Assembly (NCBI GenBank): GCA_002021875.1
Contig: CP018627.1
Span: 11,470,001 to 11,534,000 of the forward strand
Length of the DNA: 64,000 nucleotides
Direction: 5' to 3'
Source of the DNA: Streptomyces hygroscopicus
Lineage (GTDB): Bacteria; Actinomycetota; Actinomycetes; Streptomycetales; Streptomycetaceae
Of this stretch, positions 17,004 to 36,194 are shown piece after piece. The stretch's first letter is position 1. Every line of letters begins with the position of its first letter. A model generated the notes under the pieces. It did not search any database. It saw nothing but the letters and a program-made list of their open reading frames with translations, and was not told the origin of the DNA. Both the position numbers and the translations under genes were made by a program.

Positions 17004-17016
17004 GACCTCATACACC

Positions 17017-17290
17017 TCAAGAAGAGAAGGGCTCCGGCTGTGATTCCGCGAACGCGGCGGCGCCCCGCTGGCCCTCGAGTGCCGGTGCCGAACCGGCCAG
17101 CGCCAAGCGGCCCGAAGAGTTCCTGCTTCGGCTGGCAGCAGCACCCTCCGGAAGCGCGCCGAGCAGGGGAGTGGCTGCGACCTCCGGCAGGTCTGTCAGG
17201 TTGCAGTGGGCTGCCAGTCCGGGCTCGCGGATGGCTGCTGTGGTCACCGTCTTGCCGACCTCGGGTCCGGGTGCCGGTGACGAACACCAC
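17017..17290 (-). pseudogene. bioD: dethiobiotin synthetase remnant (internal deletion and frameshift)
   Basis: The first residues VVFVTGTRT and, after a one-base insertion in an ACCC run near 17260, the continuation EVGKTVTTAA together rebuild the BioD P-loop (TGT.TEVGKT). This is followed almost at once by REPGLAAHCNLTDLPEV and ATPLLGALPEGA, which match the C-terminal part of BioD. About 120-150 central codons are missing. It lies between the bioA remnant and the P450 gene in the normal operon position. It cannot encode an active enzyme, so this step must come from another locus if the strain makes biotin. Confidence 0.75.
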
Positions 17291-17400
17291 GCATGCACCG
17301 CCGCCACTTCCTCCACCGGCTGCGCCGCCGCCATGGTGCGTATTGGTGTCGGCGTCGCCGTCCTGGCCGGGATCCGCGTGGCCGCAGGGACCCTGCCCGC

Positions 17401-17625
17401 TCATCCGGCGTCCCCCGCCACGCGCACCGCTGTGCAGATCCGGGCCACGTCGTCGTTGGCCGTGTGTTCGTCGTGCCCCTCGAACGGCTCGGCGAGCCGC
17501 AGCCGGACTCCGACCGCCGACTCCACGACCAGGGGCTCGGTGCGGCCGGGCATCGGACCGTAGGGATGCCAGACGTGCTGCCGGTTCAGGGCCAGCAACT
17601 CGCCGGTGCCCAGCGGCTCAGGCAT
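17401..17625 (-). pseudogene. bioA: DAPA aminotransferase remnant (internal deletion)
   Basis: A 74-codon open frame that joins the N-terminus of BioA ([18 protein letters not shown], then [15 protein letters not shown]) directly to its last residues ([18 protein letters not shown]). A normal BioA is about 420-430 residues, so roughly 350 codons including the whole PLP site are gone while the frame stayed open. Its ATG still overlaps the bioB stop (ATGCCTGA), the ancestral operon arrangement. A short peptide may still be made, but no aminotransferase. Confidence 0.8.
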
Positions 17626-18952
17626 TGGGCGGCAGTTCGGTGCCCGCACCGCGGCGGCGTACCGCGATCAGGCCGGTGCGGGCCGCGCCCGGCTCCGCCT
17701 GAGCCTTGTCCGGCGCCGGGACGGCCGTGGTCGCAGCGGCGGCCGCGGTCTCCGGGACCGCCGCCCCGCTGTCGCCGCAGGGACCGCAGCCCCCGCCACC
17801 GCCCGAACCGCAGCCGGACCCGGCGGCCGCCAGAGCGTCCGCACGGTGCTCGGGCAGCGTCGTGGTGTCGGCGCCCTCCACCTCGAAGCCGGCGTCGGCG
17901 ATCATGTCCAGGTCGGCCTGGCCCGCCTGGCCCTCGCTGGTGAGGTAGTCGCCAAGGAAGATCGAGTTGGCCAGGTGCAGGGCGAGCGACTGCAGCGAAC
18001 GCAAATGGACCTCGCGCCCGCCCGCGATCCGCACCTCCACGTCCGGGCAGACGAACCGCACCATCGCCAGGATGCGCAGGCAACGCTGTGGGGTGAGGTT
18101 CCACTCCTTGGCCAGCGGGGTGCCTTCGAACGGGATCAGGAAGTTGACCGGGACCGAGTCCGGGTCGAGCTCGCGCAGCGCGAAGACCACCTCCACCAGG
18201 TCCTGGTCCGACTCGCCCATGCCGGCGATCAGCCCGGAACAGGCGGACATGCCGACCGCCTGCGCCTGCCGCACCGTCTCGACACGGTCGGCGTAGGTGT
18301 GAGTGGTGGTGATGTCCCCGTAGGTGGCCTCGGAGGTGTTGAGGTTGTGGTTGTAGGCGTCCGCGCCGGCCGCGCGCAGCCGCTCGGCCTGACCGTCGGA
18401 CAGCAGCCCGAGGCATGCGCACACCTCGACGCCTTCGTTCTGTGCCTTGATCGCCTCAATGGTCTGGGAGACCCGGCCCACGTCCCGGTCGGTGGGTCCG
18501 CGGCCGCTCGCCACCAGGCACACCCGCTTCGCGCCGCCGGCCACCCCAGCGGCCGCGGCCTGCGACGCCTCGTCGGGCTTGAGCCAGGTGTACTTGAGGA
18601 TCTCGGCCTTGGAGCCGAGCCGCTGCGAGCAGTACGAGCAGTCCTCCGGGCACAGCCCGGATTTCAGATTGACCAGGTAGTTGAGCTTCACCCGTCGCCC
18701 GAACCACTGGCGGCGCACCCTTCCGGCCGCGGCCACCACATCGAGCAGCTCGTCGTCCGACGTGGCGAGCACAGCGAGGGCCTCGTCCTGGGAGGGCAGC
18801 TCGCGTCGCAGCCCCTTGGCGACCAGAGTGTCGAGCAGACCTACGGGGCCGCCCGCATCGTTCGGCACCGCGTCCCACCGGGTACGCCTGCGCGACCCTC
18901 CGGACCGGCGCGCACCTGGGGTGCGCTGCGCGCGCTTGCCGTCAGTGGTCAT
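17618..18952 (-). CDS. bioB: biotin synthase (radical SAM)
   Basis: A 444-residue enzyme that inserts sulfur into dethiobiotin. The radical-SAM cluster motif is CPEDCSYC (C101, C105, C108). Conserved stretches [37 protein letters not shown] and the second-cluster region [18 protein letters not shown] are intact. Relative to usual BioB it has about 38 extra basic N-terminal residues (the ATG at 18952 has GGGAGG upstream) and a long glycine/cysteine-rich then alanine-rich tail ([16 protein letters not shown] near residue 375) before the common actinobacterial end [13 protein letters not shown]. It is the first gene of the eroded biotin operon. Confidence 0.95.
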
Positions 18953-19292: not shown

Positions 19293-20696
19293 TCAGCCCG
19301 CTCCTGCCTGGTCGATACTCATGCCGCGGGTTTCACGGACACGGAGCATCACAGGGCCGAGGCATACCAGGAAGATCGCGCAAATGAACCAGAAGGGCGC
19401 ACTCGTTCCCCAGCTGGCCTGTATGAAGGGAATCGACGCGACAACGAGAACTCCACCGATGCACCGGCCCGCGGACTCCAGGAACCCGGTGGCGGTTCCC
19501 CGTGCGCGAGTGGGGAATTGCTCGGCCGTGAACAACTTGGTGAAAGGCACCAAACCCGTGCTGAAGAAGGCGCTGACAAGGCCGAAGGCGACAGAGAGTG
19601 CAAGGCTCGGGGAGAGCGCGAGCATACTGAAACCGAACACAGCGCCGAGGCTGTAGAAGAGGAAGGTCTTCTTACGGCCGAGTCTGTCGGCGAACTGCCC
19701 CACCGCGATCGCCCCCACTGCGCCGGCGATGAGGATCACGATGGTGGTGACCAGCGCTCTCTGGGCTGACATCCCCATATCCGCGTAAATCGTTGGCGCG
19801 TACACCAACAGCACATAGGCACCGGCACTGGCGCCGGCGCAGATCAATAGGCACAGTACGAACCGGCCGCGCAGCGGCCGGCGAAACAGGACTGCAGACC
19901 CGCTGCCTCGTTCGGCGCCGGCCGCGTACTCGGCCCGCACGATGGCGGTGATCCCTGGGTGCAGCAGGCCCTCAGCATGATCGCATCCGGCCTCGCGTTC
20001 CATCCGCTCCACCAGCGCCTGCGCTGCGGCTCTGTGCCCCTTGAGCAACAGCCAACGCGGGCTCTCGGGGAGATACCGGTGGACGAACGGCACCGCCAGG
20101 ATCGGCAGGCCGCCGAGGAGGAACAGGATGCGCCAGGCCAGATCGACCGGGAGATGACCGATCATTACGAGCGCCGCGGCCTGGGGAATCAGATAGCTCA
20201 GCGCGAGCACCGCGGACGCCGCGGCGATCATCCTGGCGCGGGATCGGGTCCCCAGCAGTTCCGAGAGCATGAGGTACGGAATGGGAAAGACCGCGCCGAG
20301 CGCGAGGCCCCCGAGAAGGCGCATCGCCACGATCCAACCGACGTGCGCCGACACCGCGCACAGCGCGGAGAACAACGAAAACAGCGTCACGCCCCAGAGC
20401 AGGACCACCTTACGGCCGTGACGGTCGATGAGACGACCGGCGAAGGCCGCGCCCACGATGATGCCGAGAGTGGAGGCGATACCGAGCTGGGCGGTGCCCT
20501 GAGCCGTCAGGCCCCAGGGCCCCTTGACGAGCAGCAGGATGGGGCCGATCACCCCGGTCTCGAACCCCTCGGCGACCCAGATGACGGTCACGAGGATCGT
20601 GGTCAGCAGCGCTGTCCTCGTCATGGGTAGCCGGTCGAGGCGGGACAGCAGGTTGGCCGTCACCATGGTGTCCGGCGGGATAGTCGTTTCTTGCAC
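19293..20696 (-). CDS. MFS transporter (sugar-porter / aromatic-acid type)
   Basis: A 467-residue transporter with twelve predicted membrane helices. The loop 2-3 motif GRLIDRHGRK and its repeat GQFADRLGRKKT in the second half, plus PESPRWLLLKG after helix 6, are signatures of the sugar/organic-acid porter branch of MFS. The GTG start at 20696 has AAGGAGG five bases upstream. It is the last gene of the carboxylase operon, 57 bases after the thiolase-like gene, and is the most likely importer of that pathway's substrate, presumably a carboxylic acid. Confidence 0.9.
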   Translation of the reverse strand: MQETTIPPDTMVTANLLSRLDRLPMTRTALLTTILVTVIWVAEGFETGVIGPILLLVKGPWGLTAQGTAQLGIASTLGIIVGAAFAGRLIDRHGRKVVLLWGVTLFSLFSALCAVSAHVGWIVAMRLLGGLALGAVFPIPYLMLSELLGTRSRARMIAAASAVLALSYLIPQAAALVMIGHLPVDLAWRILFLLGGLPILAVPFVHRYLPESPRWLLLKGHRAAAQALVERMEREAGCDHAEGLLHPGITAIVRAEYAAGAERGSGSAVLFRRPLRGRFVLCLLICAGASAGAYVLLVYAPTIYADMGMSAQRALVTTIVILIAGAVGAIAVGQFADRLGRKKTFLFYSLGAVFGFSMLALSPSLALSVAFGLVSAFFSTGLVPFTKLFTAEQFPTRARGTATGFLESAGRCIGGVLVVASIPFIQASWGTSAPFWFICAIFLVCLGPVMLRVRETRGMSIDQAGAG

Positions 20697-20753
20697 ACGG
20701 GCCTCCTTGGAGGGATGAGCGCTCCGGCGCGAATGCGATGGCGGGCCGAGGGG

Positions 20754-21926
20754 TCAGGTCGCGTCGAGGATCATGACCATGTGCGCGGACATGACCATGC
20801 CGGAGGCTTGCACCAGGCAGGTACGTGCGCCGGGGACCTGACGCGGGCCGCACTCCCCGCGCACCTGGCGGACCGCCTCGATCGTCAACTGCATGCCGAA
20901 CTGGCCGGAATGGTTGAACGAGAGTCCTCCACCGGAGGTGTTCAGCGGGAACGGTCCGCCCGGGGCTATGCGTCCGCCGCCGACGAACGCTCCGGCTCCG
21001 CCGGGTTCGCAGAAACCGAGCGCTTCCAGCGCTACGAGCACGTTGATCGTGAAAGCGTCGTAGATCTGGACCGCGTCGATGTCCTGACGGTCGAGCTGCG
21101 CCATGGCCAGCGCGTCGTCGGCGACCATGCGCAGCGCGCCGTTGTCGAGCCAGTCCTCGTTGCCGAGGGGTGTCATGTGATGCCGGTAGGTATCACCGAA
21201 GCCGCGAATCGACACCGGTTTCTGTGCCAGGTCGCGGGCTCGGTCGGCGTTGGTCAAGATCATGGCGCCGGCTCCGTCGTTGATCTGGCAGATGTCGAGC
21301 TTGCGGAGCGGGTCGGCGATCAGTGGTGAGGCGAGGTAGTCCTCCATGGTCAGTGGTGCCTGACGCGCCGCGTTCGGATTGAGCTGTGCCCAACCGCGGG
21401 CGGCGAGGGCCACCTCCCCGAGATCCTCCGGCGCGCACCCGAAGCGACTGGAGTACAGCTGGGCCAGCATTGCGTAATATCCGACCGGATTGAGCATTCC
21501 GTACGGCGTGGCGAACTGGCCCGTCGGTGAGCGCGGGTCCTGGACAACGCCGGCCCGTGCACGACTCTGGTCCAGGCGCTGGGTGCTGCCGTAGGTGACC
21601 AGGGCGACCTCGCACAAGCCTGCCTCGATGGCGGCCATCGCGTGCACCAGGTGGGTGATGTTGGACTGGCCGCCGACCACCGTGTTGTCGACATACTGTG
21701 GGTGAATGCCCAGGTACTCCGCAACGAGGAGTGCGTTCGCACGATCGTCCCAGTGAGCGAGGACACCGTCGACGTCGGCCGGGCCGAGCCCGGCCTCTTG
21801 CATCGCCAGGCGTGCTGCCCGGCATTGCAGCGACAGCGACGTGGAGCCGGCGGGTGCCCTCCCCAGTCCCGCTTCACCGACCCCGACGATGGCGTACCGC
21901 CCCACAAGAGTGCGCTTGTCCGCCAT
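20754..21926 (-). CDS. thiolase-like protein (SCP-x/lipid-transfer type) lacking the usual nucleophilic Cys
   Basis: A 390-residue thiolase-fold protein with SCP-x-type landmarks: IVGVGEAGLGR at the start, DVDGVLAHWDDR, the central QINDGAGAMILTNADRA and the C-terminal NTSGGGLSFNHSGQFG. Where degradative thiolases have their nucleophilic Cys, this protein reads NTVVGGQSNITHLVHA, with no Cys visible. Relatives such as Ltp2 in steroid catabolism lack that activity and act as retro-aldolases with a DUF35 partner; a DUF35 gene is two genes upstream here. I therefore favour C-C bond cleavage or formation on a CoA ester over classical thiolysis. It follows the acyl-CoA ligase by three bases. Confidence 0.85.
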   Translation of the reverse strand: MADKRTLVGRYAIVGVGEAGLGRAPAGSTSLSLQCRAARLAMQEAGLGPADVDGVLAHWDDRANALLVAEYLGIHPQYVDNTVVGGQSNITHLVHAMAAIEAGLCEVALVTYGSTQRLDQSRARAGVVQDPRSPTGQFATPYGMLNPVGYYAMLAQLYSSRFGCAPEDLGEVALAARGWAQLNPNAARQAPLTMEDYLASPLIADPLRKLDICQINDGAGAMILTNADRARDLAQKPVSIRGFGDTYRHHMTPLGNEDWLDNGALRMVADDALAMAQLDRQDIDAVQIYDAFTINVLVALEALGFCEPGGAGAFVGGGRIAPGGPFPLNTSGGGLSFNHSGQFGMQLTIEAVRQVRGECGPRQVPGARTCLVQASGMVMSAHMVMILDAT

Positions 21927-21929
21927 CTC

Positions 21930-23474
21930 TCAGTCCGTCCTCATGTTCGCGGCGATGAGCTTGGCGCGTACGTCCTTCTTGAGGACCTTGCCGACCGAAC
22001 TGCGCGGCAGCGTGGGCCAGAACTCGACCTGCTTGGGGGTCTTCATGCTGCCGAACCGGTTCCGGCACATCTCGGCGATGCTCCCGGCGGTCACATCGGA
22101 CTCCGGCTTCAGCTCGATCACGGCGGTGAGCCGCTCGCCCCAGTCGTCGTCGGGCACACCGACGACCGCGCAGTCCTGCACCGCGGGGTGCGACCAGATC
22201 AGCTGCTCGATCTCACTGGGGTAGATGTTGAATCCGCCCGAGATCACCACATCTTTCGTGCGATCTACGACGTAGAGGTAGCCGCTCTCGTCGAAGACCC
22301 CGATGTCGCCGGTGTGGTGCCAGCCGAAGCGATGGGCTTCGGCGTTCGCCTCGGGATTGTTGAGATATCCGGGACAGACCAGTTCACCTCGGGCGACGAT
22401 CTCCCCCCGCTGACCGGCCGGGACGAAGTTGCCGTCGTCATCCATCAGTGCCACCTCACACGCCCCGGTCGGCCGGCCGGCTGACGCGAGGTGCTTGACG
22501 GCCGCGGGGTCATCGCTGAGGTAATGATCCTGACGAGACAGGCAGGTGATCACTCCCGGCGCCTCGGACTGACCGTAGAACTGGACGAACACCTGACCCC
22601 ACAGCGCCATCCCTTCCCTGAGCTTGTCGACCGACATCGGCGCGGCGCCGTAGATCACGTACTCGAGGGAGGAACAGTCACGGGTCTGGGCGTCCGGATG
22701 CGCCAGTATCCGGTAGATCATTGTCGGCGGTAGGAAGATGTGCGTCACCTGCTCCCGCTCGATCAGTTCGAGGATCACCGCGGGATCGGCCGACGGCGCC
22801 AGCACGTTGCGTGTGCCGAAGGCGGAGAGTCCCATGGCCGTCGCACCCGCAGCATGGGTCAGCGGCGCTACCACCAGGTGCACCGGTTCCTTGGCCGGTG
22901 CGGTGAACTGGTTGGCGATCCGGTACGCGGAGAGCAGGCAGCGGTGGCTCTGCACGATCGCCTTCGGACGGCCCGTCGTGCCGCCGGAGGACTTGATCAA
23001 CGCAATGTCGTCGAGCTCTCGTCGGGTGTCGCAGGTCTGGCCACTGTGATCTCGCTTCCAGGCCTCGGTGCTCGTCCCGGCCGCGGTGTGCTCGTCGAAG
23101 GCGATACATGCGGTGAGGGTGGGTACTTCGGACCGGATGCGGTCGATGTGCGGGAGGTACTGCCCGTGGTAGACCAACGCCGACATTTCCGTGAAGCGCA
23201 TGAACCAGATCAGGTCCTCGATCTGGTCGCGGGCGTTGAGCGGCACGTAGGTGGCGCCCGCGCGCAGGATCCCGAGCATCGCGACGAAGCCGTCGGGGTG
23301 GTTGGGGGACAGAATGCCGATGTTGCCGCTGTCCAGCCCTCCCTCGGTCAGTCCGTGCGCAATCGCGTGCGACGCGGCCACGACGTCCTGGTAGCTGAGC
23401 CGTACTGTGCCGGACTGCAGAAACGTTTGCTCCGGGTATCGAGCGGCACCCGCGTCGAAGTGGTCGGTGATCAT
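21930..23474 (-). CDS. AMP-dependent acyl-CoA synthetase/ligase
   Basis: A 514-residue ANL-superfamily enzyme. The ATP-binding A3 motif is LIKSSGGTTGRPKAIVQSH (near residue 165), the A5 region includes YGQSEAPGVI, the hinge segment is HHTGDIGVFDESGYLYVVDR, and the catalytic Lys lies in SVGKVLKKDVR near the C-terminus. It would activate a carboxylic acid to its CoA thioester. The operon also has a second, succinyl-CoA-synthetase-like activating pair, so two acids or two pathway stages may need CoA activation. The ATG overlaps the DUF35 stop (ATGA). Confidence 0.93.
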   Translation of the reverse strand: MITDHFDAGAARYPEQTFLQSGTVRLSYQDVVAASHAIAHGLTEGGLDSGNIGILSPNHPDGFVAMLGILRAGATYVPLNARDQIEDLIWFMRFTEMSALVYHGQYLPHIDRIRSEVPTLTACIAFDEHTAAGTSTEAWKRDHSGQTCDTRRELDDIALIKSSGGTTGRPKAIVQSHRCLLSAYRIANQFTAPAKEPVHLVVAPLTHAAGATAMGLSAFGTRNVLAPSADPAVILELIEREQVTHIFLPPTMIYRILAHPDAQTRDCSSLEYVIYGAAPMSVDKLREGMALWGQVFVQFYGQSEAPGVITCLSRQDHYLSDDPAAVKHLASAGRPTGACEVALMDDDGNFVPAGQRGEIVARGELVCPGYLNNPEANAEAHRFGWHHTGDIGVFDESGYLYVVDRTKDVVISGGFNIYPSEIEQLIWSHPAVQDCAVVGVPDDDWGERLTAVIELKPESDVTAGSIAEMCRNRFGSMKTPKQVEFWPTLPRSSVGKVLKKDVRAKLIAANMRTD

Positions 23475-23896
23475 CGCTCTTCCAGATCTGTCAGAGTGAA
23501 TTGGGGAAGGACCGTGGTACTGCTGGTCCGTTCGAAGCGCACTGCGACTCGGGCGCCAATACGGATGCGGTCGATGGGGCAGTCCACGATGTTGGTCAGC
23601 AGCCGCACTCCCTCATCGAGGTCGATCATGGCCACGGCATAGGGGACCTTGCCCGCCATCGAGGGATGCGCGGGAAGTCGGCAGATCGTGAACGTGTAGA
23701 TGCGCCCCAGCCCGGCGGACGGCACCCACTCCAGCCGTTCCGACAGGCAGGCCGTGCAGAAAGCGCGCGGGTAGAACTGGTGGCGCCCGCAATTCGCGCA
23801 ACGCTGGACCACCAGGCGCTCGTCGGCGGCGGCCTCCCAGTAGGCCGCCGTCTCGGCGGTGGGGCGAGGTTCCGGACGCAGCGCGTTGTCAGCCAT
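23471..23896 (-). CDS. DUF35 zinc-ribbon/OB-fold protein
   Basis: A 141-residue protein of the DUF35 family. A four-Cys zinc ribbon (CANCGRHQFYPRAFCTAC, residues about 33-50) is followed by an OB-fold (GLGRIYTFTICRLP, then PYAVAMIDLDEGVRLLTNIV). Such proteins are obligate partners of thiolase-like enzymes, for example ChsH2 with the aldolase Ltp2, and likely bind or position the acyl-CoA. It overlaps both neighbours (eight bases with the carboxyltransferase, ATGA with the ligase). Confidence 0.92.
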   Translation of the reverse strand: MADNALRPEPRPTAETAAYWEAAADERLVVQRCANCGRHQFYPRAFCTACLSERLEWVPSAGLGRIYTFTICRLPAHPSMAGKVPYAVAMIDLDEGVRLLTNIVDCPIDRIRIGARVAVRFERTSSTTVLPQFTLTDLEER

Positions 23897-25394
23897 TGGC
23901 GCGCAGTTCCACGCCGGGTGCCACCAGCCGCACGTTCCGCCGGCTCGGCATCCGTCCGAGCCCGGCCACCAGCTCCACGATCGACTGCTCGACGCTGAAG
24001 GTGTCCTCGACCGGGACGAGTGCGTCGATCTTCTGGTCGTCGTACATGTACCGCAGGATCATCTCGTCCGGCGACAGGTGCCCGTGCCGGCCGCGCAGTC
24101 GCGGCAGGATCGGATCGAGCTGCGGCGGCGTCTCGGAAATGTCGCGCGAGCCGTTGCTCATCACCAGGTCCCTGACGCCGTCGTCAACGGGCAGAGGCAG
24201 CGCACCGAAGTATCCGCACACATACTTTTTCACCTCATCCGGCACCACGGCATAGCGCTCGGTGTTCAGGACGTTCATCACCGCCTGGGCCGCGACGATG
24301 GCGGGGAACGGCGTCGCCATGACGGGCGAACCCAGCTCCTCACGAACCCGGCCGATCTCCTCGATCACCGCCGGCAGCTTGTCCGCAATTCCAGCCGCCT
24401 TCAGCTGCGCCTCGAGATTCGTCATGGCACCGCCCGCGTACTGCGTGTGGTAGTTCGCGGGGTCGTACTCCGCCGGGACACCCACCGGGTAACCCAGTTG
24501 GTCGGCGAGCTTGCCCAGGTAGTCCCCGACGTCGTCGAGCAATCGGTCGTCGACGGCGACGTCGAACCCCAGGGCGCGCAGGTCCCGGGCCATCATCTGA
24601 GCCGACGGCAGCGAATTGCCGTTGGCCAACGGGTCGATGGCGGTCAGGATCTGATCCGCGCCGTACACCGCCGCCTCGAGAGCGACCTGCGGACCCATCC
24701 CGGTCAAGCAGTGCGTGTTCAGCTCCAGCCGGGTGCCGCCGATCGCGGCCCGCAGCGCCGGTACCAGCGTCCGGGTGCGCTCGACGGTCAGGCTGCCACC
24801 GGCATCCGCGAGGCAGATCGTGTCCGGGGCGAAGCGATCGATGACCTCTCGTGCCTGCCGGACGTAGAAATCGTCGTCGTAACCCGGCGCGAGGTTGAAC
24901 ACGAGAGCGATCGTGATCTTCGCCCCGAGCCGCTGGGCGACGCGGATCCCGGGTGACACGTTGTCCCACGAGTGGAGGGAGTCGAGGAACGCGAAGTCGC
25001 GGATGCCGTTGACCAGCATCCGCTCGATGAAGAGCGCGTTGAGGTCGTCCGGCTGAGGGTAGAAGCCGTGAAGCAAATTGCTGCGGACAGCGCCCCGGAG
25101 GGGAGTCATCGTGATCCGGTCACGGAGCAGCCGCACCCGTTCGAAAGGGTCCTGATGCAGAAACAGGACTCCGGCGTCGAAGCCCACCATCGCGAGCGCC
25201 TCGGCGGAACCGAAGCCCGCCTCTTCGATCTTTTCCGCGATCGGCAGCATGTGTTCGGTGCGCATCCGGGTCGCCCACAGGCACTGATGAGCGTCCCGGA
25301 GCGTGCCGTCGGTCAGGGCGATCGTCCGGCGCTGACCCGTCCGGGAGTATTCGGCCTCGACGAGCTGACGAAGGTTGGTGAGCACAGGATTCAC
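23889..25394 (-). CDS. pyruvate-carboxylase/transcarboxylase-5S-type carboxyltransferase, variant active site (CT-B)
   Basis: A 501-residue homologue of the 5S subunit of transcarboxylase and of the pyruvate carboxylase CT domain: an HMGL-like TIM barrel (about 25-300) plus a C-terminal helical domain. The substrate/metal motif TLRDAHQ (D34) and AVRSNLLHGFYP are conserved. The position of the carbamylated, proton-shuttling Lys reads ICLADAGG (A196 where Lys is expected), and the HxH metal motif reads ELNTHCLTG, so the first His is N226 and the second, H228, remains. Metal binding or chemistry may thus differ, or the paralogue at 25391-26827 may contribute. The GTG start overlaps the upstream stop. 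It likely works on a 2-oxo acid or ketone acceptor. Confidence 0.85.
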   Translation of the reverse strand: MNPVLTNLRQLVEAEYSRTGQRRTIALTDGTLRDAHQCLWATRMRTEHMLPIAEKIEEAGFGSAEALAMVGFDAGVLFLHQDPFERVRLLRDRITMTPLRGAVRSNLLHGFYPQPDDLNALFIERMLVNGIRDFAFLDSLHSWDNVSPGIRVAQRLGAKITIALVFNLAPGYDDDFYVRQAREVIDRFAPDTICLADAGGSLTVERTRTLVPALRAAIGGTRLELNTHCLTGMGPQVALEAAVYGADQILTAIDPLANGNSLPSAQMMARDLRALGFDVAVDDRLLDDVGDYLGKLADQLGYPVGVPAEYDPANYHTQYAGGAMTNLEAQLKAAGIADKLPAVIEEIGRVREELGSPVMATPFPAIVAAQAVMNVLNTERYAVVPDEVKKYVCGYFGALPLPVDDGVRDLVMSNGSRDISETPPQLDPILPRLRGRHGHLSPDEMILRYMYDDQKIDALVPVEDTFSVEQSIVELVAGLGRMPSRRNVRLVAPGVELRANG

Positions 25395-26823
25395 CCTTCC
25401 TGTTGCAGATGGATGCGGACACCGGGCGCGTGCACACTCAACGTGGCGTAGCGGCCGGCACGCTCGAGCAATCCACGAGCGAGGCTCTCGTAGGGCGTCA
25501 ACGCCTCGTACGGCACGACCCCCTCGGCCCTCCGCGGGACCGTGGCGATCGTGACTCCGGCCACCCAGGCGAGCAGTGCATCCTCATCTGCGTCGAGATC
25601 GGCTTCTCCTTTCGGAGAGGAGAATTCGGATGACGGCAGTGAGCCGACCCGCGCCTTCAGGTCGGTACGAAGGTCGCCGTCGACCGTGCCGTACGCGCCC
25701 TGCAGCAACCGGCGCAGCACCGGCCGCAGGCTCTCGTATCTCCGCTCGCCATCGAAGTGACACATCGCCTGCTCGGCGATCGCGCGGGCAAAAGGGGCCA
25801 CCATCGGCGGCGAGCCCATCTCACGGCGCACGGCCGCGCACTCGGCGGCAAACGCGTGCAGGTCTGCCCAGCGTCCACGCTCGCGCACGGCCTGCCGAAC
25901 GTCGGCCGCCACCTCGCCCGGCAGCTGATGGACGTACGTCGCCAGATCGAAAGGCCACGACGCCGCAGCAGGAAAGCCTTCCTGATCAGCGATATCGGCG
26001 AGGAGCGCATCGGCGGCCAGCAGGCTGTCGAGGTCAGGCAGATCCAGAGAGCGCTCCTCGCGCTGCAGGACGCGGATCAATGACGGCAGCGACGGCAGGG
26101 AGGCGCCGTTGGCGACCGAGGGCAGCGCCGTGTCGATGCCACTGACGCCGAGCCGGCCGGCCTCGACAGCGACGACGGTCCCGAGCGCGGTATGGCATCG
26201 CGTGTGGAGGTCGAGAGGAGTGCTGCCGAGCGCCGCCACCAGCGCGGGGAAAAGGGCGTGAGCCCGGTCCGGTGTCAGTACTCCGCTCTCGTCCCGCAAC
26301 ATCACCCGCGCAGCGCCGGCAGCGACGAGCGAGGCCGCTCGCTGCGCGTAGGTTTCGTCCGACACGCCGTCGTCGGCCGTGTAGGGCAGGGCGGCAATGG
26401 CGGTCAGTCCCGCGGTGGCGGCAGACTCCAGAGCCGCCTTGAGACGGGGCAGGTCCAGCAACGGATCCAGCAGGACCACCTGCTGCAGGCCCGCCGCGGC
26501 CAGTGCCGACAGCCAGCCGTCGATCGCCGCGGGGCCGAGCACGTCGGCGCCCGGCCGTCCATGCCCGGTCAGCAGGTTGACGGTGGCACGCAGCGGAACG
26601 GAGCCGTAGTGCCGCCGGGCGAGTTCCACCCGCTGCAGCGGGTGCTCATCGCGGGCCAGGCACTTGTCCAGGACCGCCGGACTGAGCACTTCGACCGCCG
26701 CGAGCCCACTGGACGACAGCGCTCCGGCGGGGGCGAGGAGCATCCGGGTATCCAGTGCGCCGTCCCAGACCGCGGCCTGGCCGTCGGTAAGACTCGTGTC
26801 GGTGAATGTGGGCCGGTGGCTGC

Positions 26824-26827
<4 letters not shown>
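25391..26827 (-). CDS. divergent carboxyltransferase paralogue (CT-A), probably a non-canonical subunit
   Basis: A 478-residue protein co-linear with CT-B but more diverged. The TLRDAHQ motif has become TSLTDGQ, keeping the Asp (D15) but losing Arg and His; the Lys segment reads VMLRDESG (R178); and the HxH motif reads DLHTRCHTALG, keeping the first His (H208) and replacing the second by R210. The C-terminal helical domain resembles the other paralogue (REMGSPPMVAPFARAIAEQA). It could be a structural or regulatory pseudo-subunit, or form a heteromeric active site with CT-B. It sits between biotin carboxylase and CT-B with ATGA and GTGA overlaps on either side, so the three are likely made in fixed ratio. 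Confidence 0.75.
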
Positions 26828-28250
<1,423 letters not shown>

Positions 28251-28254
<4 letters not shown>

Positions 28255-28769
28255 GCTGCGGCCTCCGCCTCGGCTGGGTCGACGATCATCAGGATCTGGT
28301 GGTGCTCCACAGATTGCCCGTGCTCGACGAGGATCGAGTGGACCCGGCCCGCTGCCGGCGCCGCGACCGAGTTGAACATCTTCATGACCTCGACCAGGCA
28401 CAGCGTCGCGGACGCCTCGACCTGCTGGCCCTCTTCCACGAACGGTGGCTGATCCGGCGCGGGCGTGCGGTAGAACATGCCGGGCATGGGCGCCCGGATC
28501 GCGATCATCCGCTCCGGTACCTCGGATGCCGCCGGGCTGCTGACGGCCGCCGGGGCCGCGGTCGGGGCACTGGCCGGCGCGGGTGGCGGCGTCCTGACGG
28601 CTGGGGCCGCGGTGGCGGGGAGTTCGGCCGGCGGCGTACTCAGCAGAGCGGCCCCGGGTTTGCGCGCCTGCAGGACGACGTCTCCGATCCGCAGGTCGAG
28701 CGAATCGAGATGCTCTGCGGTGTCCAGGAGTTCAAGGATGCGTCGGACGTCTGCGTGGTGAAGATTCAT
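28251..28769 (-). CDS. biotin carboxyl carrier protein
   Basis: A 172-residue AccB-like carrier. A short N-terminal helical region (1-40) is followed by a proline/alanine-rich flexible linker (about 45-85) and a biotinyl domain with APMPGMFYR and the biotinylation site CLVEVMKMFN (Lys at residue 130). ATG 28769 is preferred because GAGGAATGGGAAG precedes it and it gives the usual AccB start; an earlier ATG at 28784 lacks a site. It would shuttle carboxybiotin between the biotin carboxylase and the carboxyltransferases of this operon. Confidence 0.95.
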
Positions 28770-28813
28770 CTTCCCATTCCTCATGAAGTGCGTTCGCGAT
28801 GGGGTGTCTGCGG

Positions 28814-30436
28814 TCAGGCCCGCATGCTGCGCGCGGTCGTACCGAGATGTCCGGGCAGGATTCGGTAGGCCTGACGTACCCATTCGCACAGCATCGGACG
28901 GGTGTCGCGGGGATCGATAAGGTCCTGGATACCGAACCGTTCCGCGGTCCGGAACGGATTCTCCACGGGCTGGAAGCGGGCATACAGCTCCTTGCGGAGT
29001 GCGGCCGGGTCGTCGCTTTCCGCGAGTGTGCGCCGGTAGGCGGCTTCGACGCCGCCCTCGATGGGGATCGATCCCCAGTGCGCCGTCGGCCAGGCGAGAC
29101 GCCGGTTGATGCTGCCACCACCCACCGGGCCGTAGGCGGCGCCGGCCAGCCCGTAGGCACGACGCACGAACAGTGAGAGCCAGGGGACACGCGCCTGCTC
29201 AAGCGCCATCGCCGTCCTGATGCCCTTGCGCAGGGTGCCCTTCTGCTCGGCATCACTGCCGACAAAGGTGCCGGGCTGGTCGATCAGGTTCACCACCGGC
29301 AGGTGGAAGGTGTCGGCCATGTCGACGAACCTGGTGATTTTCTCGGCGGAGTCGACAGTCAATGACCCGCCGAGCCACATGGGATCATTCGCGAGGACCG
29401 CGACGGGATGACCGTCGAGACGTGCGAGCATCGTGATCTGGGACTGCCCGAAGTAGCGTCCGGTCTCGAACAGGCTGCCGTCGTCGAAGACCGAGGCCAG
29501 CAACTCGCGCATGTCGTACGAGTACTGCTTGATTGCCGGGATCGTCGTGGACAAGGCCTCATCACGACGGTCCACCGGATCGGCGCAGGGCGTCACCGGA
29601 GGAAGCTCATGGACGCTCGAGGGCAGGTAGGACAAGAAGCGGACGACTTGTTCGAGTGCCTCGAATTCGTCGGTGGCCTCGTTGTCGACGACACCCGATC
29701 CGCGCGCATGCACACCCGAGCCGCCGAGTTCGGCATTGGTGACGTCTTCACCCACGGCCTTCTTCACGACCGCGGGTCCACCGGCGAAGAGGTAGGAACC
29801 CTCGGCGGTCATGATCGACAGGTGGCTCGCGCACACCCTTACCGCGCCGAGGCCGGCGGCGGCGCCGAGCGCGACGCCGACGACGGGGACGGTGCCCAAC
29901 AACTCCGTCATCGGCCAGTGCGGGTATCCGGGAATCTTGGTGGCAGACATCTGCTCAAGGAGGTTGACGCTGCCGCCGGCGGTCTCGACCAGCCGGATCA
30001 CGGGCCAACGATAGGTCAGCGCCAAGCGCTCGACGTACTGCCACTTCTCGGGGTTGGTCGCCTCAGACGACCCCCCGCGCACGGTGAAGTCCTCCGCCAC
30101 GAGGATCACGTCACGGCCATCGACCTTCGCTTGCCCGCAGACAACATTCGACGGTTCGACCGAGATGAGCTGCCCGCGTTCGTCGTAGCGGGCGGAGCCG
30201 GTCATCATGCCGATCTCGCGCCATGATCCCTCGTCGACGAGTCGCTCGATGCGCTCCCGCGCGGTCAAGCGCCCGCGCGCGTGTTGGCGCTCGATCTTGT
30301 CGGGGCCGCCCATCGCCAAGGCGAACTCACGGCGCTTGGCCATTTCTGCTTCGAACCACGGCCGGCCGGTGCTGTCCGCGGCGCTGGTGCCGACGGCCAG
30401 GGCCGGGGAAGCTGCTCGGGATTCGATCTGGGTCAT
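28814..30436 (-). CDS. acyl-CoA carboxyltransferase subunit (MmdA/PccB/transcarboxylase-12S type)
   Basis: A 540-residue fused-beta carboxyltransferase with two crotonase-like halves. N-half landmarks are KIERQHARGRLTARERIERL, DFTVRGGSSEATNPEKW and the oxyanion-type loop VIRLVETAGGSVN; C-half landmarks are NDPMWLGGSLTVDSAEKI and NLIDQPGTFVGSDAEQKG. Such subunits move carboxyl groups between carboxybiotin and an acyl-CoA. Together with the 5S-like proteins downstream, the gene set parallels the transcarboxylase 12S/5S/1.3S composition, but with its own biotin carboxylase. The ATG has AGGAAA upstream and follows the SucD-like gene by 31 bases. Confidence 0.9.
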   Translation of the reverse strand: MTQIESRAASPALAVGTSAADSTGRPWFEAEMAKRREFALAMGGPDKIERQHARGRLTARERIERLVDEGSWREIGMMTGSARYDERGQLISVEPSNVVCGQAKVDGRDVILVAEDFTVRGGSSEATNPEKWQYVERLALTYRWPVIRLVETAGGSVNLLEQMSATKIPGYPHWPMTELLGTVPVVGVALGAAAGLGAVRVCASHLSIMTAEGSYLFAGGPAVVKKAVGEDVTNAELGGSGVHARGSGVVDNEATDEFEALEQVVRFLSYLPSSVHELPPVTPCADPVDRRDEALSTTIPAIKQYSYDMRELLASVFDDGSLFETGRYFGQSQITMLARLDGHPVAVLANDPMWLGGSLTVDSAEKITRFVDMADTFHLPVVNLIDQPGTFVGSDAEQKGTLRKGIRTAMALEQARVPWLSLFVRRAYGLAGAAYGPVGGGSINRRLAWPTAHWGSIPIEGGVEAAYRRTLAESDDPAALRKELYARFQPVENPFRTAERFGIQDLIDPRDTRPMLCEWVRQAYRILPGHLGTTARSMRA

Positions 30437-30467
30437 GGCGAAGTTTCCTGTCTGTCAGGGATGCCGG

Positions 30468-31373
30468 TCAGCGAAACGCCGCGGCCGGGAGCGCTTCCGC
30501 GAGGTGCGCGCGTATGTCATGCGTCGAGCGGGCCACGAGGACGCCCACGTCGGCGAGCGCCGCACACTTTTCCTGCACGGTCGCACCATCGGCATCACGC
30601 GGCGCGTGTCCGAACGGCAGTGCCGTCGGCAAGGAATCGCCGGCACGCCCGGCCACCATCGCGATGATCGGCAACTCGATTCGTCCGTCCGCCACCGCGC
30701 GGGCCAAGACGACCTCCTGGCTACTGGACGGTTCGCCGAAGACCAGCACGGCCCGGGTCAGGGGGTCCCCGGCGACCAGTTCGACGCCTTCGGTGAGGGT
30801 GGTGCCGGCCGTCGGCATGCCGCCGATCGACATCTGCACACTGGTACCCCATCCCCACGTCCGCACCAGCATCGCCAGTTCGGAGGCCATGCCGCCGCTC
30901 CGCGAGACGATGCCCACCGACCCGGCCGCGAACCGCTGCCACGGTTCGTTACCGCCGGGACAACCGATCCTGCCCACACCCGGGACGACGACGCCCTGGG
31001 AGTTCGGTCCGATCACGCGGCAGTTGTGCGCTCGCGCGACATCGAGCGCCCGAAGCCAACGATGCCGCGGAATGTTCTCCGAGCTGACCACGATCAGCTC
31101 GAGACCCGCCTGCGCCGCCTCCGCAACCGCATCGGCCGCGGCCTGCGACGGCGCGTAGCTCATCGCCACCTGTGCGCCCGTCGCCGCGACGGCCGCGGCG
31201 ACGGTGTCGAAGACCGGCACCCCGTGCACCTCGGAGCCGCCCTTGCCGGGGGTGACACCGGCTGCCACCTTGACACCGGAATCGAGCATCCAGCGGGTCT
31301 CCAGCTGCCCTTGCCTACCGGTGATGCCTTGCACGAGAAGCCCAGGACCAGCTTCGAGAAGTCGACGAATCAT
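30468..31373 (-). CDS. succinyl-CoA-synthetase alpha-like subunit (NDP-forming acyl-CoA ligase)
   Basis: A 301-residue SucD-like protein. It has the CoA-binding Rossmann start LLVQGITGRQGQLETRWM, VIGPNSQGVVVPG, VGIVSRSGGMASELA and the phosphohistidine site in LPFGHAPRDADG. The alpha subunit carries the CoA site and the phosphorylated His. Compared with housekeeping SucD, the His segment departs from GHAGAI, which suggests a different acid, such as malate, citrate or another dicarboxylate. The start ATG overlaps the beta-like stop (ATGA). Confidence 0.88.
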   Translation of the reverse strand: MIRRLLEAGPGLLVQGITGRQGQLETRWMLDSGVKVAAGVTPGKGGSEVHGVPVFDTVAAAVAATGAQVAMSYAPSQAAADAVAEAAQAGLELIVVSSENIPRHRWLRALDVARAHNCRVIGPNSQGVVVPGVGRIGCPGGNEPWQRFAAGSVGIVSRSGGMASELAMLVRTWGWGTSVQMSIGGMPTAGTTLTEGVELVAGDPLTRAVLVFGEPSSSQEVVLARAVADGRIELPIIAMVAGRAGDSLPTALPFGHAPRDADGATVQEKCAALADVGVLVARSTHDIRAHLAEALPAAAFR

Positions 31374-32569
31374 CGGGCAAGCCCTTCCAGCGCCTGTGGT
31401 GACCGTTCCATCGCGGACCGCAGTAGGTCGCATGCGTCTTCGAGCGACGCGGTGCGATCAAGTACGAGGGCTCCGGGCAGGCGCTCCTTGAGGGTTGCGT
31501 GCGCCTCCGCTTCGTGCGGGCCGGCCAGCCGAACGACAGTCGGCACACGAGTCGAGTCGAATCCAGCCCGATCCGCGGCAGCAACGAACTCGAGCGCGAC
31601 GTCACGCGCATCGGCGAGACTCAGTACGGCACCGCCGAACAGCACCCCACGAAGCCCGGGGACAGACAGTGCGGAACTGAAGAGGGTCTGGAGTTTGGCG
31701 CTCCCTGCCCCTGGCGACGCGTCGAGGTAGCAGGCCGGGCTGATACCGAGGTCCGTCAGGTAATCGAGCCCCAGAAGACCCGCACCACCACCGGTGATCA
31801 TGCAGGCCACGTCACCGTCGAGCTCGAAGAACTTGACACCGGCCCTGTTCGGCTCGGCAGCGTCGGCCTCGTGCACTGCCACCTCGCGCGGCGTCGGTGC
31901 GCGATCCTGGGCGGCCTCCGGGGCGACCAGCGGGGTCGGCCGGAACTCCCGTGCGGTCGCATGGCCGTGGGGATCGAATTCGACCGCCACACCGACGGCG
32001 GCCAGTCGCTGCCCGTCCCACCGGAAGGGGTTGACCTCGATGAGAACCGCTTCGGCGGCGCAGAAGGCGGTCCACAGGACCTGCAGCGCGTGAGCGAGCG
32101 CACGCCGCAGTTGCAGGTCATGGACGGCAGCCCGGTCGAGCAGGGCGACCACCAAGTGGTCGTGGAGGCCCTGCGTCAGGCCGACCGTCACCGCGGCGGC
32201 CTGATGCGCGTCGAATCCGACGCCGCCGCTGGTACTGGCACGCACGACAGCGCCACGCGTGGTCTCGTCCAGGGCGATGGAGAGATAGCACTCATCTCCG
32301 TCGATGTACTCCTCCACCACTGCGGGCGCACCGCTTCGAAGGGTTGCGGCGACGGCGGACGACAGCTCGTCCCGGGACCGGCAGATGTGCACGAGGCCGG
32401 CCAGGCCCTTGCCGCTGCCGGCTATGTCGGGTTTCACCACCCACGGTGGTCCGAACGCCGGCTCGTCCGGCGTCAGAATTTGCTCATCCGTCACGACGAC
32501 CAGCTCGGGCGTCGTGACGCCGAGCCGGCGCAGCCAGGGCATCGCGGCGCTCTCGGTGGCGCGGGGCAT
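31370..32569 (-). CDS. succinyl-CoA-synthetase beta-like subunit (ATP-grasp)
   Basis: A 399-residue SucC-like partner of the alpha-like subunit. An ATP-grasp domain occupies the N-terminal half (PPWVVKPDIAGSGKGLAGL; VVEEYIDGDECYLSIALD; AVLIEVNPFRWDGQRL), and a flavodoxin-like domain follows with the power-helix region ACMITGGGAGLLGLDYLTDL. ATG 32569 is chosen because AAGGGAG lies about six bases upstream; a longer frame begins at 32662 without a ribosome site. It is the first gene of the carboxylase operon and is divergent from the LysR gene. The pair would activate an acid with ATP and CoA. Confidence 0.85.
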   Translation of the reverse strand: MPRATESAAMPWLRRLGVTTPELVVVTDEQILTPDEPAFGPPWVVKPDIAGSGKGLAGLVHICRSRDELSSAVAATLRSGAPAVVEEYIDGDECYLSIALDETTRGAVVRASTSGGVGFDAHQAAAVTVGLTQGLHDHLVVALLDRAAVHDLQLRRALAHALQVLWTAFCAAEAVLIEVNPFRWDGQRLAAVGVAVEFDPHGHATAREFRPTPLVAPEAAQDRAPTPREVAVHEADAAEPNRAGVKFFELDGDVACMITGGGAGLLGLDYLTDLGISPACYLDASPGAGSAKLQTLFSSALSVPGLRGVLFGGAVLSLADARDVALEFVAAADRAGFDSTRVPTVVRLAGPHEAEAHATLKERLPGALVLDRTASLEDACDLLRSAMERSPQALEGLAR

Positions 32570-32612
32570 CTCGGCTCCCTTCACAGCGGGGTCTTCAGGT
32601 GCTGGACCGCTT

Positions 32613-32706
32613 CGATTCAGCCACCAGTGTGGAGTGGGTAACCGATTCAGGGAAGTAGTCACTGGCGACCGGGGTGATTGCCATCATCGATCGGTCGGCC
32701 TATGGT
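32613..32706. promoter_or_regulatory. lysR promoter and candidate regulator-binding repeats
   Basis: A strong sigma-70-like promoter for the plus strand is visible: TTGCCA at 32678-32683, a 17-base spacer and TATGGT at 32701-32706, placing transcription start at about the ATG at 32713. Upstream, CGATTCAG occurs twice (32613-32620 and 32643-32650), exactly 30 bp apart, i.e. about three helical turns, in the region shared with the divergent operon. The repeats as LysR sites are an inference. Confidence 0.5.
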
Positions 32707-32712
32707 CTCGGG

Positions 32713-33648
32713 ATGAGATCCGAGCAGATGCGCTATTTGGAGGCGGCGATCCGCCTCGGTTCCCTACGCAAGGCGGCCGTGGAGGTGGGCATCGGGCAAC
32801 CGACGCTCAGTCAGCAGATCCGGCGCCTGGAGGAGGACCTCAACGTCAACCTGCTGATCCGCCGCGCCAACGGGGTCTTCCCCAGCGCCGAGGCCCGGAT
32901 TTTGCTCCCACACATGCGGCAGGTGCTGCAGGCCGACCGCGCCCTACGAGAGGAGGCCGGGCTGATCAACGGACTACGCAGCGGCAGCGTTCGTCTGGGC
33001 GCTGTCACCACCGCGAGCCAGATACTTCTGCCTCGGGTGGTTCCGCTCTACCGGAACTCGTTTCCTCACGTGCGCTTTTCCGTGTGGGAATCCGGCTCCT
33101 CAAGTGTGCGCGACAGGGTGACGAGCGGGGAGCTCGACCTCGGGCTGGTCGTGGGCCGCGGTGATCCGGCCTCCGACGCGAGCCTCACTGCGACCGATCT
33201 GATCGCAGATGACATCGTGCTGTGCGTGCCCCGGCGCCATCCGTTGGCAACCAAGCCAACTGTCAGCATCCAGGACCTTGAGGGCGAGTCCTGGGTGGTC
33301 CCCGCGCGCGGCTACGCACTGCGGGAACTGGTGGACTCCACATTCATGCCAACAGCGCAGAACATCGTCTACGAGACGACCAACCCGCACACGAGCCTGC
33401 TTATGGTCGCCGCCCGAGTGGGCATCGCCATGCTGCCGCGACATGCGCTCCATGACCACTGCGCCGGCGAGGTCGCGACTCCCACAACGGACTGGGACCC
33501 GCCCCAGCTGACCGTACGCATGATCGGGCGCAGGGACACTCAACCGGCGCCCGCGGTGCGAAAGCTCATCCAGGCACTGCGCGAGGTCAGTTCGGAGTGG
33601 TCGCGCAACTACCGGCGAGAGCGGTCAAAGCTCCCCCCAAAACCGTAG
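32713..33648 (+). CDS. LysR-family regulator of the carboxylase operon
   Basis: A 311-residue LysR protein. The winged helix-turn-helix covers residues 1-60 (QMRYLEAAIRLGSLRKAAVE, then GQPTLSQQIRRLEEDLN), followed by a linker helix and the two-lobed effector domain (SVRLGAVTTASQILLPRVVP; ELDLGLVVGRGD). ATG 32713 is preferred over the in-frame GTG at 32674 because it begins the canonical LysR start and lies at the predicted transcription start; there is no ribosome site, so translation is probably leaderless. It is divergent from, and presumably activates, the 11-gene operon on the minus strand in response to a pathway intermediate. Confidence 0.93.
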   Translation: MRSEQMRYLEAAIRLGSLRKAAVEVGIGQPTLSQQIRRLEEDLNVNLLIRRANGVFPSAEARILLPHMRQVLQADRALREEAGLINGLRSGSVRLGAVTTASQILLPRVVPLYRNSFPHVRFSVWESGSSSVRDRVTSGELDLGLVVGRGDPASDASLTATDLIADDIVLCVPRRHPLATKPTVSIQDLEGESWVVPARGYALRELVDSTFMPTAQNIVYETTNPHTSLLMVAARVGIAMLPRHALHDHCAGEVATPTTDWDPPQLTVRMIGRRDTQPAPAVRKLIQALREVSSEWSRNYRRERSKLPPKP

Positions 33649-36044: not shown

Positions 36045-36194
36045 GTGCTTCCTCTCGCGCTGGAACGTCCCCAGCACAGACCCACCGCTGTCGGTGTATC
36101 CAGCCGTATCGACCACGGATCCGCACAAAACTCATCGGTCACGGCAGACATTGATGAGAAACGCCAACTCCGATGAGACTCACATCAACCCAGA

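Follow-up and report, generated by a model that had tools for sequence, protein, structure and literature searches.

A biotin-dependent carboxylase gene cluster of Streptomyces hygroscopicus with two barrels that lack the carbamyl-lysine: a candidate route for ketone carboxylation

Results

Gene content of the locus

Here we describe a cluster of biotin-dependent carboxylase genes in Streptomyces hygroscopicus, located within a stretch of 64,000 nucleotides (assembly GCA_002021875.1, contig CP018627.1, positions 11,470,001 to 11,534,000; hereafter the window, in whose positions all coordinates are given). Open reading frames place eleven minus-strand genes in one packed run (19293-32662), from which a LysR gene diverges (32674-33648). 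A sequence-only reading of the window had described this series together with its divergent regulator; all eleven genes and the LysR gene are present as open frames where it had placed them, and its family names largely agree with the Pfam and NCBIfam assignments. In order of transcription the run encodes a SucC-like and a SucD-like protein, a 12S-type carboxyltransferase (CT12S), a biotin carboxyl carrier protein (BCCP), a biotin carboxylase (BC), two 5S-type carboxyltransferase (CT) barrels (S5a and S5b), a DUF35 protein, an AMP-forming ligase (AMPlig2), a thiolase-fold protein and an MFS protein. Because successive genes are spaced by only -64, 31, 44, -4, -4, -4, -8, -4, 3 and 57 bases, a single transcript across all eleven is plausible, and we refer to them as the operon. 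The features are as follows.

32674..33648, plus strand: LysR-type regulator, divergent (Pfam LysR_substrate and HTH_1)
31370..32662, minus strand: SucC-like ATP-grasp subunit of an NDP-forming acid:CoA ligase (ATP-grasp_2, 46 bits; closest solved structure the large subunit of citryl-CoA synthetase, 6hxq_B, E 1.1e-18)
30468..31433, minus strand: SucD-like CoA-binding subunit of the same ligase (sucCoAalpha, 204 bits, under the cut-off of 353)
28814..30436, minus strand: CT12S, a 12S/MmdA/PccB-type carboxyltransferase of a divergent clade (Carboxyl_trans, PF01039, 314.7 bits)
28251..28769, minus strand: BCCP (Biotin_lipoyl, 67 bits, scored on a longer enclosing frame)
26824..28254, minus strand: BC (TIGR00514, cut-off 626.5; the longer frame 26824-28401 reaches 631.9 bits)
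25391..26827, minus strand: S5a, a 5S/pyruvate-carboxylase-type barrel, strongly diverged yet conserved (Arg at the carbamyl-Lys position)
23889..25394, minus strand: S5b, a 5S/pyruvate-carboxylase-type barrel that retains the Arg, Gln and Gly-Gly of the substrate side but not the metal-site Lys (PYC_OADA, 82.8 bits; PRK09282, 320 bits; 41-row alignment)
23471..23896, minus strand: DUF35 partner subunit (zf-ChsH2, 57.8 bits, and OB_ChsH2_C, 80.8 bits)
21930..23474, minus strand: AMPlig2, an AMP-forming acyl-CoA ligase (AMP-binding, 232 bits)
20754..21926, minus strand: thiolase-fold protein without the nucleophilic Cys, motif YDAF (Thiolase_C_1, 174 bits; alignments)
19293..20696, minus strand: MFS importer (TIGR00895, the aromatic acid:H+ symporter subfamily, is its highest NCBIfam match with 174 bits, under the cut-off of 418)

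The LysR protein perhaps starts about 20 codons downstream of the beginning of its longest frame. The BCCP gene starts at 28769 and its end overlaps the start of the BC gene at 28254. BCCP carries an intact VEVMKMF, which we take to be the biotin attachment motif, and BC contains EMNTRIQVEHPVTE, presumably a motif of biotin carboxylases. In addition, the phosphohistidine region of the SucD-like subunit (GHA) is preserved in an alignment to 2yv1_A.

The carboxylase core recurs in two phyla

Relatives were collected in an S5b scan of one genome per species, in which 165 stretches encode a relative; the best 80, amounting to 78 loci, were kept. We define as core the 26 scan loci with an S5b of at least 61% identity together with a stretch from a congener (L123), giving 27 loci; a further locus with an S5b of 59%, DUF35 and an AMP ligase (L053) was excluded because its contig of 3.5 kb is too short. 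The wider set of S5b relatives consists of 51 loci outside the core, many of them on short contigs, and gene calls in all relatives are open frames, many of which are over-long.

S5b is present in all 27 core loci and S5a, BC and BCCP in 25 each, with BC found in every one of the 25 loci that encode S5a. The DUF35, AMPlig2 and thiolase-like genes each occur in 22 of the 27 and behave as a trio, being either all present (22) or all absent (5). The S5a loci belong to Nocardia, Rhodococcus, a Streptomyces congener, Pseudomonas, Variovorax and Paraburkholderia/Burkholderia. Three actinobacterial loci (L029, L054 and L123) carry LysR, SucCD, the core and MFS in the same order as the window, with LysR orthologues of 81%, 86% and 77%, respectively, in the equivalent position, so that the comparison with other actinobacteria which the sequence-only reading had suggested recovers the gene order. 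The proteobacterial S5a loci have a divergent GntR gene and a different AMP-forming ligase (AMPlig1), beside which a CT12S gene (48-52% to the window's) is located in 20 of 22; some also carry an MFS gene family, and for the two members tested the aromatic-acid subfamily is the best or second-best match, under cut-off. Because the core recurs in Actinomycetota and Pseudomonadota, the grouping of BCCP, BC, S5a and S5b is, judged by gene content, more than chance.

Among the 391 other genomes examined in the genus, 1 has an S5a orthologue at E <= 1e-60, and among 395 others sampled across the phylum none does; on these counts a pyruvate carboxylase-like housekeeping role was rejected. In a family sample of 150 genomes (the organism's own included), 19 others matched S5a, at best with 5e-16, mostly through pyruvate-carboxylase-like frames of >1100 amino acids that are 26-30% identical, and in a few cases through short partial frames. 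A protein search with S5a returned 139 proteins; among the best 120, 83 (the window's own included, some partial) share at least 41% identity and the other 37 share 32% or less. We regard the cluster, on its distribution, as an accessory catabolic cluster that is probably mobile.

Two different barrels without the carbamyl-lysine

We take the metal-site ligands of enzymes of the pyruvate carboxylase type to be a carbamylated Lys, an Asp and two His. The metal-site alignment covered two-subunit pyruvate carboxylase, oxaloacetate decarboxylase, 16 long pyruvate-carboxylase-like rows, 61 non-core S5b-like rows, 25 S5a and 27 S5b-core rows. Lys occupies the carbamyl-Lys position in both reference enzymes, in 16/16 of the long rows and in 55/61 of the non-core S5b-like rows, and in 0/25 S5a and 0/27 S5b-core rows; the S5b of L053 likewise has no Lys there. 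Residues were also counted in sets chosen from the protein searches, namely 55 of the 83 S5a rows and 41 of 121 S5b rows (at least 53% identity, with more distant matches left out). The position is Arg in 55/55 S5a rows, and in S5b it is Ala (22), Gly (11), Tyr (4), Val (2), Phe (1) or Met (1), never Lys.

Beyond the metal site, the two barrels conserve different residues. In S5b, Arg33, Asp34, Gln37, Arg104, Gly321 and Gly322 are invariant (41/41); Arg33, Gln37 and Arg104 align to residues which, we presume, hold the pyruvate carboxylate in pyruvate carboxylase and 5S. The alignments show that S5a is devoid of the Arg and Gln of the LRDxxQ motif, of the second Arg and of the Gly-Gly of S5b, and its own invariant set consists of Asp15, Arg178-Asp179-Glu180, His208 and Cys211 (55/55), with Asp206 in 53/55. 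S5a is modelled as a complete carboxyltransferase fold and could still bind metal via Asp15, Asp206 and His208. From these patterns, S5b is likely the catalytic barrel, working without the classical carbamyl-lysine metal, and we predict that it is metal-free; S5a reads as a conserved partner barrel beside it, the two being different and both conserved.

A quick tree, built on the 87 rows left of 134 once near-copies had been removed, groups the S5b core with other S5b-like proteins, apart from pyruvate carboxylase (the underlying alignment omitted frames <250 or >720 amino acids, and L106 and L107 gave no row). A recent origin of S5a by duplication of S5b is unsupported: S5a forms one clade on a strikingly long branch (2.7), the position of which is unsure given the long-branch warning of the tree program. 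Paired barrels were also seen in three proteobacterial loci, L055, L070 and L100, in which a Lys-bearing S5b-like CT accompanies a Lys-less one (Glu in L055 and L100, Ile in L070); L055 additionally has ADP-forming-type CoA ligase genes, an AMPlig2 relative (53%) and a 12S-type CT.

Relatives of S5b adjoin beta-keto-acid cleavage enzymes

The carboxylase HpeCBA carboxylates 4-phospho-acetovanillone and 4-phospho-acetophenone at the expense of one ATP and does not use the free phenols (PMC9618137, in the passages drawn on here). Seven plasmid regions carry S5b relatives, and four of them are built like hpe in gene content, with a phosphatase or HAD gene, BCCP, BC, CT and a CoA ligase; kinase-type genes are named in three of the four (L109, L110 and L113) and not in the fourth. 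The regions of Rhodococcus pyridinivorans P23 and R. oxybenzonivorans S2-17 hold PEP (phosphoenolpyruvate)-utilising and dikinase genes, an AMP-binding protein, BCCP, BC, CT, an OB-fold protein, a thiolase and a phosphatase, and a Rhizobium region holds PEP-utilising and PEP-binding proteins, BCCP, BC, CT, HAD and an acetoacetate-CoA ligase. The Pseudomonas putida YC-AE1 region has the same set as the Rhizobium region with no named kinase, and the R. opacus G13 region carries no annotation.

A second type of neighbourhood emerged from the wider set, where 13 of the 51 loci share one gene family near the S5b-like gene; Pfam, applied to 11 of the 13 members, assigns 11/11 to BKACE, a beta-keto-acid cleavage enzyme (299-335 bits against a cut-off of 24.8). 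These loci are all proteobacterial (L057, L058, L064, L069, L071, L073, L077, L096, L097, L098, L102, L104 and L106). Because its relatives repeatedly adjoin beta-keto-acid cleavage enzymes, S5b is best read as a ketone carboxylase that most likely produces a beta-keto acid, and the ATP-driven carboxylation of a ketone or oxo compound envisaged by the sequence-only reading gains support from both the Hpe-like (by gene content) and the BKACE neighbourhoods. As a separate observation, a gamma-glutamyltranspeptidase-like family, of which one member was checked by Pfam, lies near S5b-like CTs in 12 of the 51 loci (L057-L106).

A thiolase-like protein without the nucleophilic cysteine

The thiolase-like protein of the window, whose DUF35 partner is encoded two genes upstream, reads VVGGQSN, YDAF and NHSG, whereas the thiolases of two Hpe-like regions (L109 and L110), which carry a DUF35/thiolase pair that keeps the Cys, read ENACASG, HDAF and a GHP motif. 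Residues were counted in the best 120 of 4033 proteins that passed the search, the window's own included: the position of the nucleophilic Cys is Gly in 120/120, Tyr289 replaces His in 120/120, and the residue after YD is Ala in 99 and, as in Ltp2, His in 21. Since the nucleophilic Cys is absent, thiolysis is unlikely, and the cleavage by a thiolase that had been suggested from the sequence alone does not agree with these residues. CtSal similarly has Gly at the place of the Cys and 'cannot catalyze thiolytic cleavage', its Tyr acting as the retro-aldol base (PMC12329534, in the passages drawn on here). In the window's protein, Ala stands at the position of Sal Cys304 and Ltp2 His296, and the region of Ltp2 Tyr344 reads NHSGQFGM in a gapped alignment; another residue, for example His339, may take the role of Ltp2 Tyr344 or Sal Cys304. 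We predict that the protein is a retro-aldolase-type or hydrolytic C-C lyase.

CT12S and the second acid:CoA ligase

In an alignment with four genome paralogues and PccB, CT12S reads AGLG and GLAG at the sites of the PccB Gly-Gly pairs, which we take to be the oxyanion-hole sites, and thus has Gly-Leu rather than Gly-Gly at each. By pattern, AGLG is found at the N-site in 23/23 CT12S sequences of type F3 and GLAG at the C-site in 21/23; in the other two the pattern matched elsewhere, and one of them (L043) shows GLAG in the alignment. Across the 25 S5a loci, 22 encode an F3-type frame of >400 amino acids, two (L038 and L047) an F5-type frame instead, which is short in L047, and the congener L123 retains a remnant (L123:12648-13218) in which only residues 1-53, 403-517 and 509-540 match, reflecting a large internal loss. 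Because L123 has lost most of CT12S and kept the other cluster genes, which are 64-86% alike to the window's, CT12S is apparently a regular member that is dispensable for keeping the core. Moreover, exactly one further acid:CoA ligase is present in 25/25 S5a loci, SucCD in 3 (actinobacteria) and AMPlig1 in 22 (proteobacteria), with neither both (0) nor none (0) in any, and for this reason the two look like interchangeable routes to the same or a similar CoA ester.

Neighbouring genes

Just downstream of the operon, bioB, a P450 and a bioF-like gene lie on the minus strand (14576-18952). A second bioB above cut-off is located elsewhere in the genome, at 2.19 Mb, so that the window holds an additional set of biotin-synthesis genes next to an operon that depends on biotin. 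Genes for biotin supply are also seen close to other S5b-like clusters, with bioB and bioF matches in Bradyrhizobium (L106), bioA and a carbonic anhydrase in L107, and BioY and ECF parts in L108. On the other side, an FAD monooxygenase gene (34743-36128, minus strand) matches a tetracycline destructase subfamily at 272 bits, well under the cut-off of 550. Among the core loci, L033 also carries a TauD-type dioxygenase gene.

Discussion

We propose that this probably mobile operon is catabolic and serves the breakdown of a ketone that lacks an easy attack point, likely a keto acid. The MFS protein would import the acid (step 1), BC and BCCP would, as their families suggest, form carboxy-biotin using ATP (step 2), and S5a/S5b would transfer CO2 to the alpha-carbon of the ketone to give a beta-keto acid, a role suggested by family and neighbours (step 3). 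AMPlig2 would then produce the beta-ketoacyl-CoA (step 4), and the DUF35/thiolase-fold complex would cleave a C-C bond (step 5), speculatively with the Tyr acting as base on the hydrated keto group in an aldol-like, hydrolytic retro-Claisen reaction that yields acetyl-CoA and a free acid. This acid might be re-activated by SucCD, or by AMPlig1 in proteobacteria (step 6), after which CT12S might act on it with the same BC and BCCP (step 7), both steps being speculative. Since step 5 would release a free acid, the second acid:CoA ligase in every S5a locus would find an explanation.

We infer every reaction from gene content, conservation and active-site letters, and the parts of the proposal differ in weight. 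Step 3 taken alone is, in our judgement, probable; steps 2 to 5 in this order are possible, a little short of an even chance; and the complete series of seven steps is doubtful. Tentatively, the cluster would combine a two-barrel CT that lacks the metal sites and carboxylates an unactivated ketone, a thiolase-fold enzyme that cleaves by aldol-type chemistry, and one BC/BCCP pair that serves two carboxylations, of the ketone and of an acyl-CoA.

Several observations weigh against this proposal. Its weak point is the cleavage step, where the active site favours aldol chemistry on a beta-hydroxy ester and the neighbourhood favours a beta-keto ester; enzymes with the Tyr motif seen in the thiolase-like protein cleave beta-hydroxyacyl-CoA rather than beta-ketoacyl-CoA, in conflict with the order of the Hpe reactions. 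Given that both metal sites are lost, the two barrels may not be ordinary carboxyltransferases. Neither a kinase of the PEP-synthase/dikinase type nor a phosphatase was found among the 11 operon genes with Pfam and NCBIfam. In three Variovorax loci (L043, L044 and L049), BC, BCCP, S5a and S5b occur without the DUF35-AMPlig2-thiolase trio nearby, and two others (L033 and L040) have a lone S5b (62-63%) near TctC-type receptor genes, with no S5a, BC or BCCP within the stretch examined. Finally, the plasmid regions L107 (Caballeronia, with an acetoacetate decarboxylase gene) and L108 (Arthrobacter) are not Hpe-like, and 38 of the 51 wider loci, many on short contigs, show neither Hpe-like genes nor the BKACE family.

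The doubt about the cleavage step gives rise to an alternative in which aldol cleavage precedes carboxylation. Here, AMPlig2 would activate a beta-hydroxy acid, an Ltp2-like DUF35 complex would split it into a ketone and acetyl- or propionyl-CoA, the ketone would be carboxylated by BC/BCCP/S5a/S5b, SucCD or AMPlig1 would activate the resulting beta-keto acid, and CT12S would serve the acyl-CoA. The retained Tyr and missing Cys in all of the best 120 homologues of 4033, together with the Ltp2-type His after YD in 21 of them, are in line with this order, as are the joint occurrence of DUF35, AMPlig2 and the thiolase-like gene (all in 22 and none in 5 of the 27 core loci) and the MFS- and TctC-type acid importers nearby. 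However, where Ltp2 has the His of YDHF, which belongs to its oxyanion hole, this cluster has Ala, no Tyr aligns to the acid Tyr344 of Ltp2, and the operon genes include no hydratase or dehydrogenase for a beta-hydroxy acid. The Hpe order is the reverse, and L055 has an AMPlig2 relative (53%) adjoining an S5b-like gene without DUF35 or thiolase-like genes in the stretch fetched. We therefore consider this order unlikely, if worth keeping in view.

Less probable still is a shuttle like that of the propionibacterial 12S/5S transcarboxylase, in which CT12S would move CO2 from a dicarboxylic acyl-CoA made by SucCD or AMPlig1 onto biotin and S5a/S5b would pass it to a keto compound. The 12S-type, 5S-type and carrier genes do stand together, and an F3-type CT12S frame of >400 amino acids is found in 22 of the 25 S5a loci; however, BC accompanies S5a in 25/25, so that carboxy-biotin can be made directly, L123 has kept the other genes after losing most of CT12S, and the oxyanion-hole glycines of CT12S are altered. 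The transfer of CO2 between a CoA ester and an oxo-acid, which the sequence-only reading had offered as a second option, thus lacks support, as the BC in every S5a locus makes a shuttle unnecessary.

Equally improbable in our estimate is a carboxylase for pyruvate or another 2-oxo-acid that feeds central metabolism, with unrelated acyl-CoA enzymes alongside. S5b does keep Arg33, Gln37 and Arg104, the presumed contacts of the pyruvate carboxylate. The same Arg residues are present in the Hpe-like CTs of L109 and L110, which presumably act on a phospho-ketone, and those of L111 and L113 have Thr at the second Arg, so that these residues are not decisive for pyruvate; the metal-site Lys of the 16/16 long pyruvate-carboxylase-like rows is found in 0/27 S5b-core rows, and the distribution is sparser than an anaplerotic enzyme would allow. 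A role of the operon in making a specialised metabolite, for which the location on a chromosome arm (11.47-11.53 Mb of a single contig of 12.01 Mb) and the P450, bioB and bioF-like genes downstream on the same strand might speak, is highly improbable, as the Pseudomonas, Variovorax and Paraburkholderia cores with their GntR regulators and acid importers form a catabolic pattern, and no bioB, P450 or bioF match was present in the stretches fetched from L029, L054 and L123.

Ketone carboxylation, the reading we prefer, has a described close relative in the Hpe pathway of Rhodococcus rhodochrous GD02 (HpeHI, HpeCBA, HpeD, HpeE and HpeF), which shares with the operon BCCP, CT and BC encoded together, followed by an AMP-forming CoA ligase and C-C cleavage, and which, in the passages drawn on here, has a kinase, a phosphatase, one CT subunit and a CouO-type hydrolase (PMC9618137). 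The operon instead combines a pair of CT barrels with a further 12S-type CT, SucCD, and DUF35 with a thiolase-fold enzyme devoid of the Cys, and the phenol-ketone Hpe pathway itself was rejected for want of a kinase or phosphatase among the 11 genes. No description of the exact gene set was found in the open-access literature; to that extent the statement of the sequence-only reading that no such pathway is described stands, and the Hpe pathway qualifies it (PMC9618137). XccBCA of Aromatoleum aromaticum EbN1, tied to 4-hydroxyacetophenone, is likewise a three-part biotin carboxylase but, as the same source presents it in those passages, has one CT subunit and is clustered with kinase homologues (PMC9618137). 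BKACE clusters likewise encode an S5b-type CT, BC or BCCP or both within the same stretch, and an enzyme that cleaves beta-keto acids, and those checked have a gene for an NMT1-type binding protein or an MFS protein; they differ in that BKACE replaces the DUF35/thiolase-like pair and the metal-site Lys is mostly kept (55/61 non-core S5b-like rows).

Known carboxylases differ further. Unlike two-subunit pyruvate carboxylase (5ks8) and transcarboxylase 5S (1rqb), S5a and S5b have no carbamyl-Lys/His metal site, and the operon encodes a separate BCCP and two barrel subunits. Transcarboxylase (12S/5S/1.3S) has no biotin carboxylase, and the operon, which has one, is not a member of that group. Like acyl-CoA carboxylases of the PccB/AccD type, the operon has a PF01039 CT, BC and BCCP, but its CT12S is without Gly-Gly at the oxyanion-hole sites. 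The steroid retro-aldolases Ltp2-ChsH2(DUF35) and Sal-Shy(DUF35) share with the thiolase-like protein the fold, the DUF35 partner, the Tyr in (Y/H)DxF and the absence of the nucleophilic Cys (PMC12329534, in the passages drawn on here), whereas the window's protein reads YDAF rather than YDHF or YDCY, carries His339 at the position taken by the GHP His in the thiolases of L109 and L110, and is encoded in an operon with no named steroid gene among its 11.

Aerobic ketone carboxylation has been described in few pathways, and the authors of the Hpe study state, in the passages drawn on here, that no other aerobic pathway for aromatic compounds with a carboxylation step is known to them (PMC9618137). 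The strategy of biotin-dependent ketone carboxylation is therefore known, and what is probably new is the second barrel S5a, the lost metal sites, CT12S with the extra ligase, and the Cys-less thiolase-like protein. The cluster suggests a second, kinase-free design for ketone carboxylation across two phyla, in which the mutual exclusion of SucCD and the AMP ligase at one step offers a handle for substrate searches. If our proposal is true, a CT without the metal centre of pyruvate carboxylase and a Cys-less DUF35/thiolase-fold lyase would be new to enzymology and might serve as tools to fix CO2 onto ketones.

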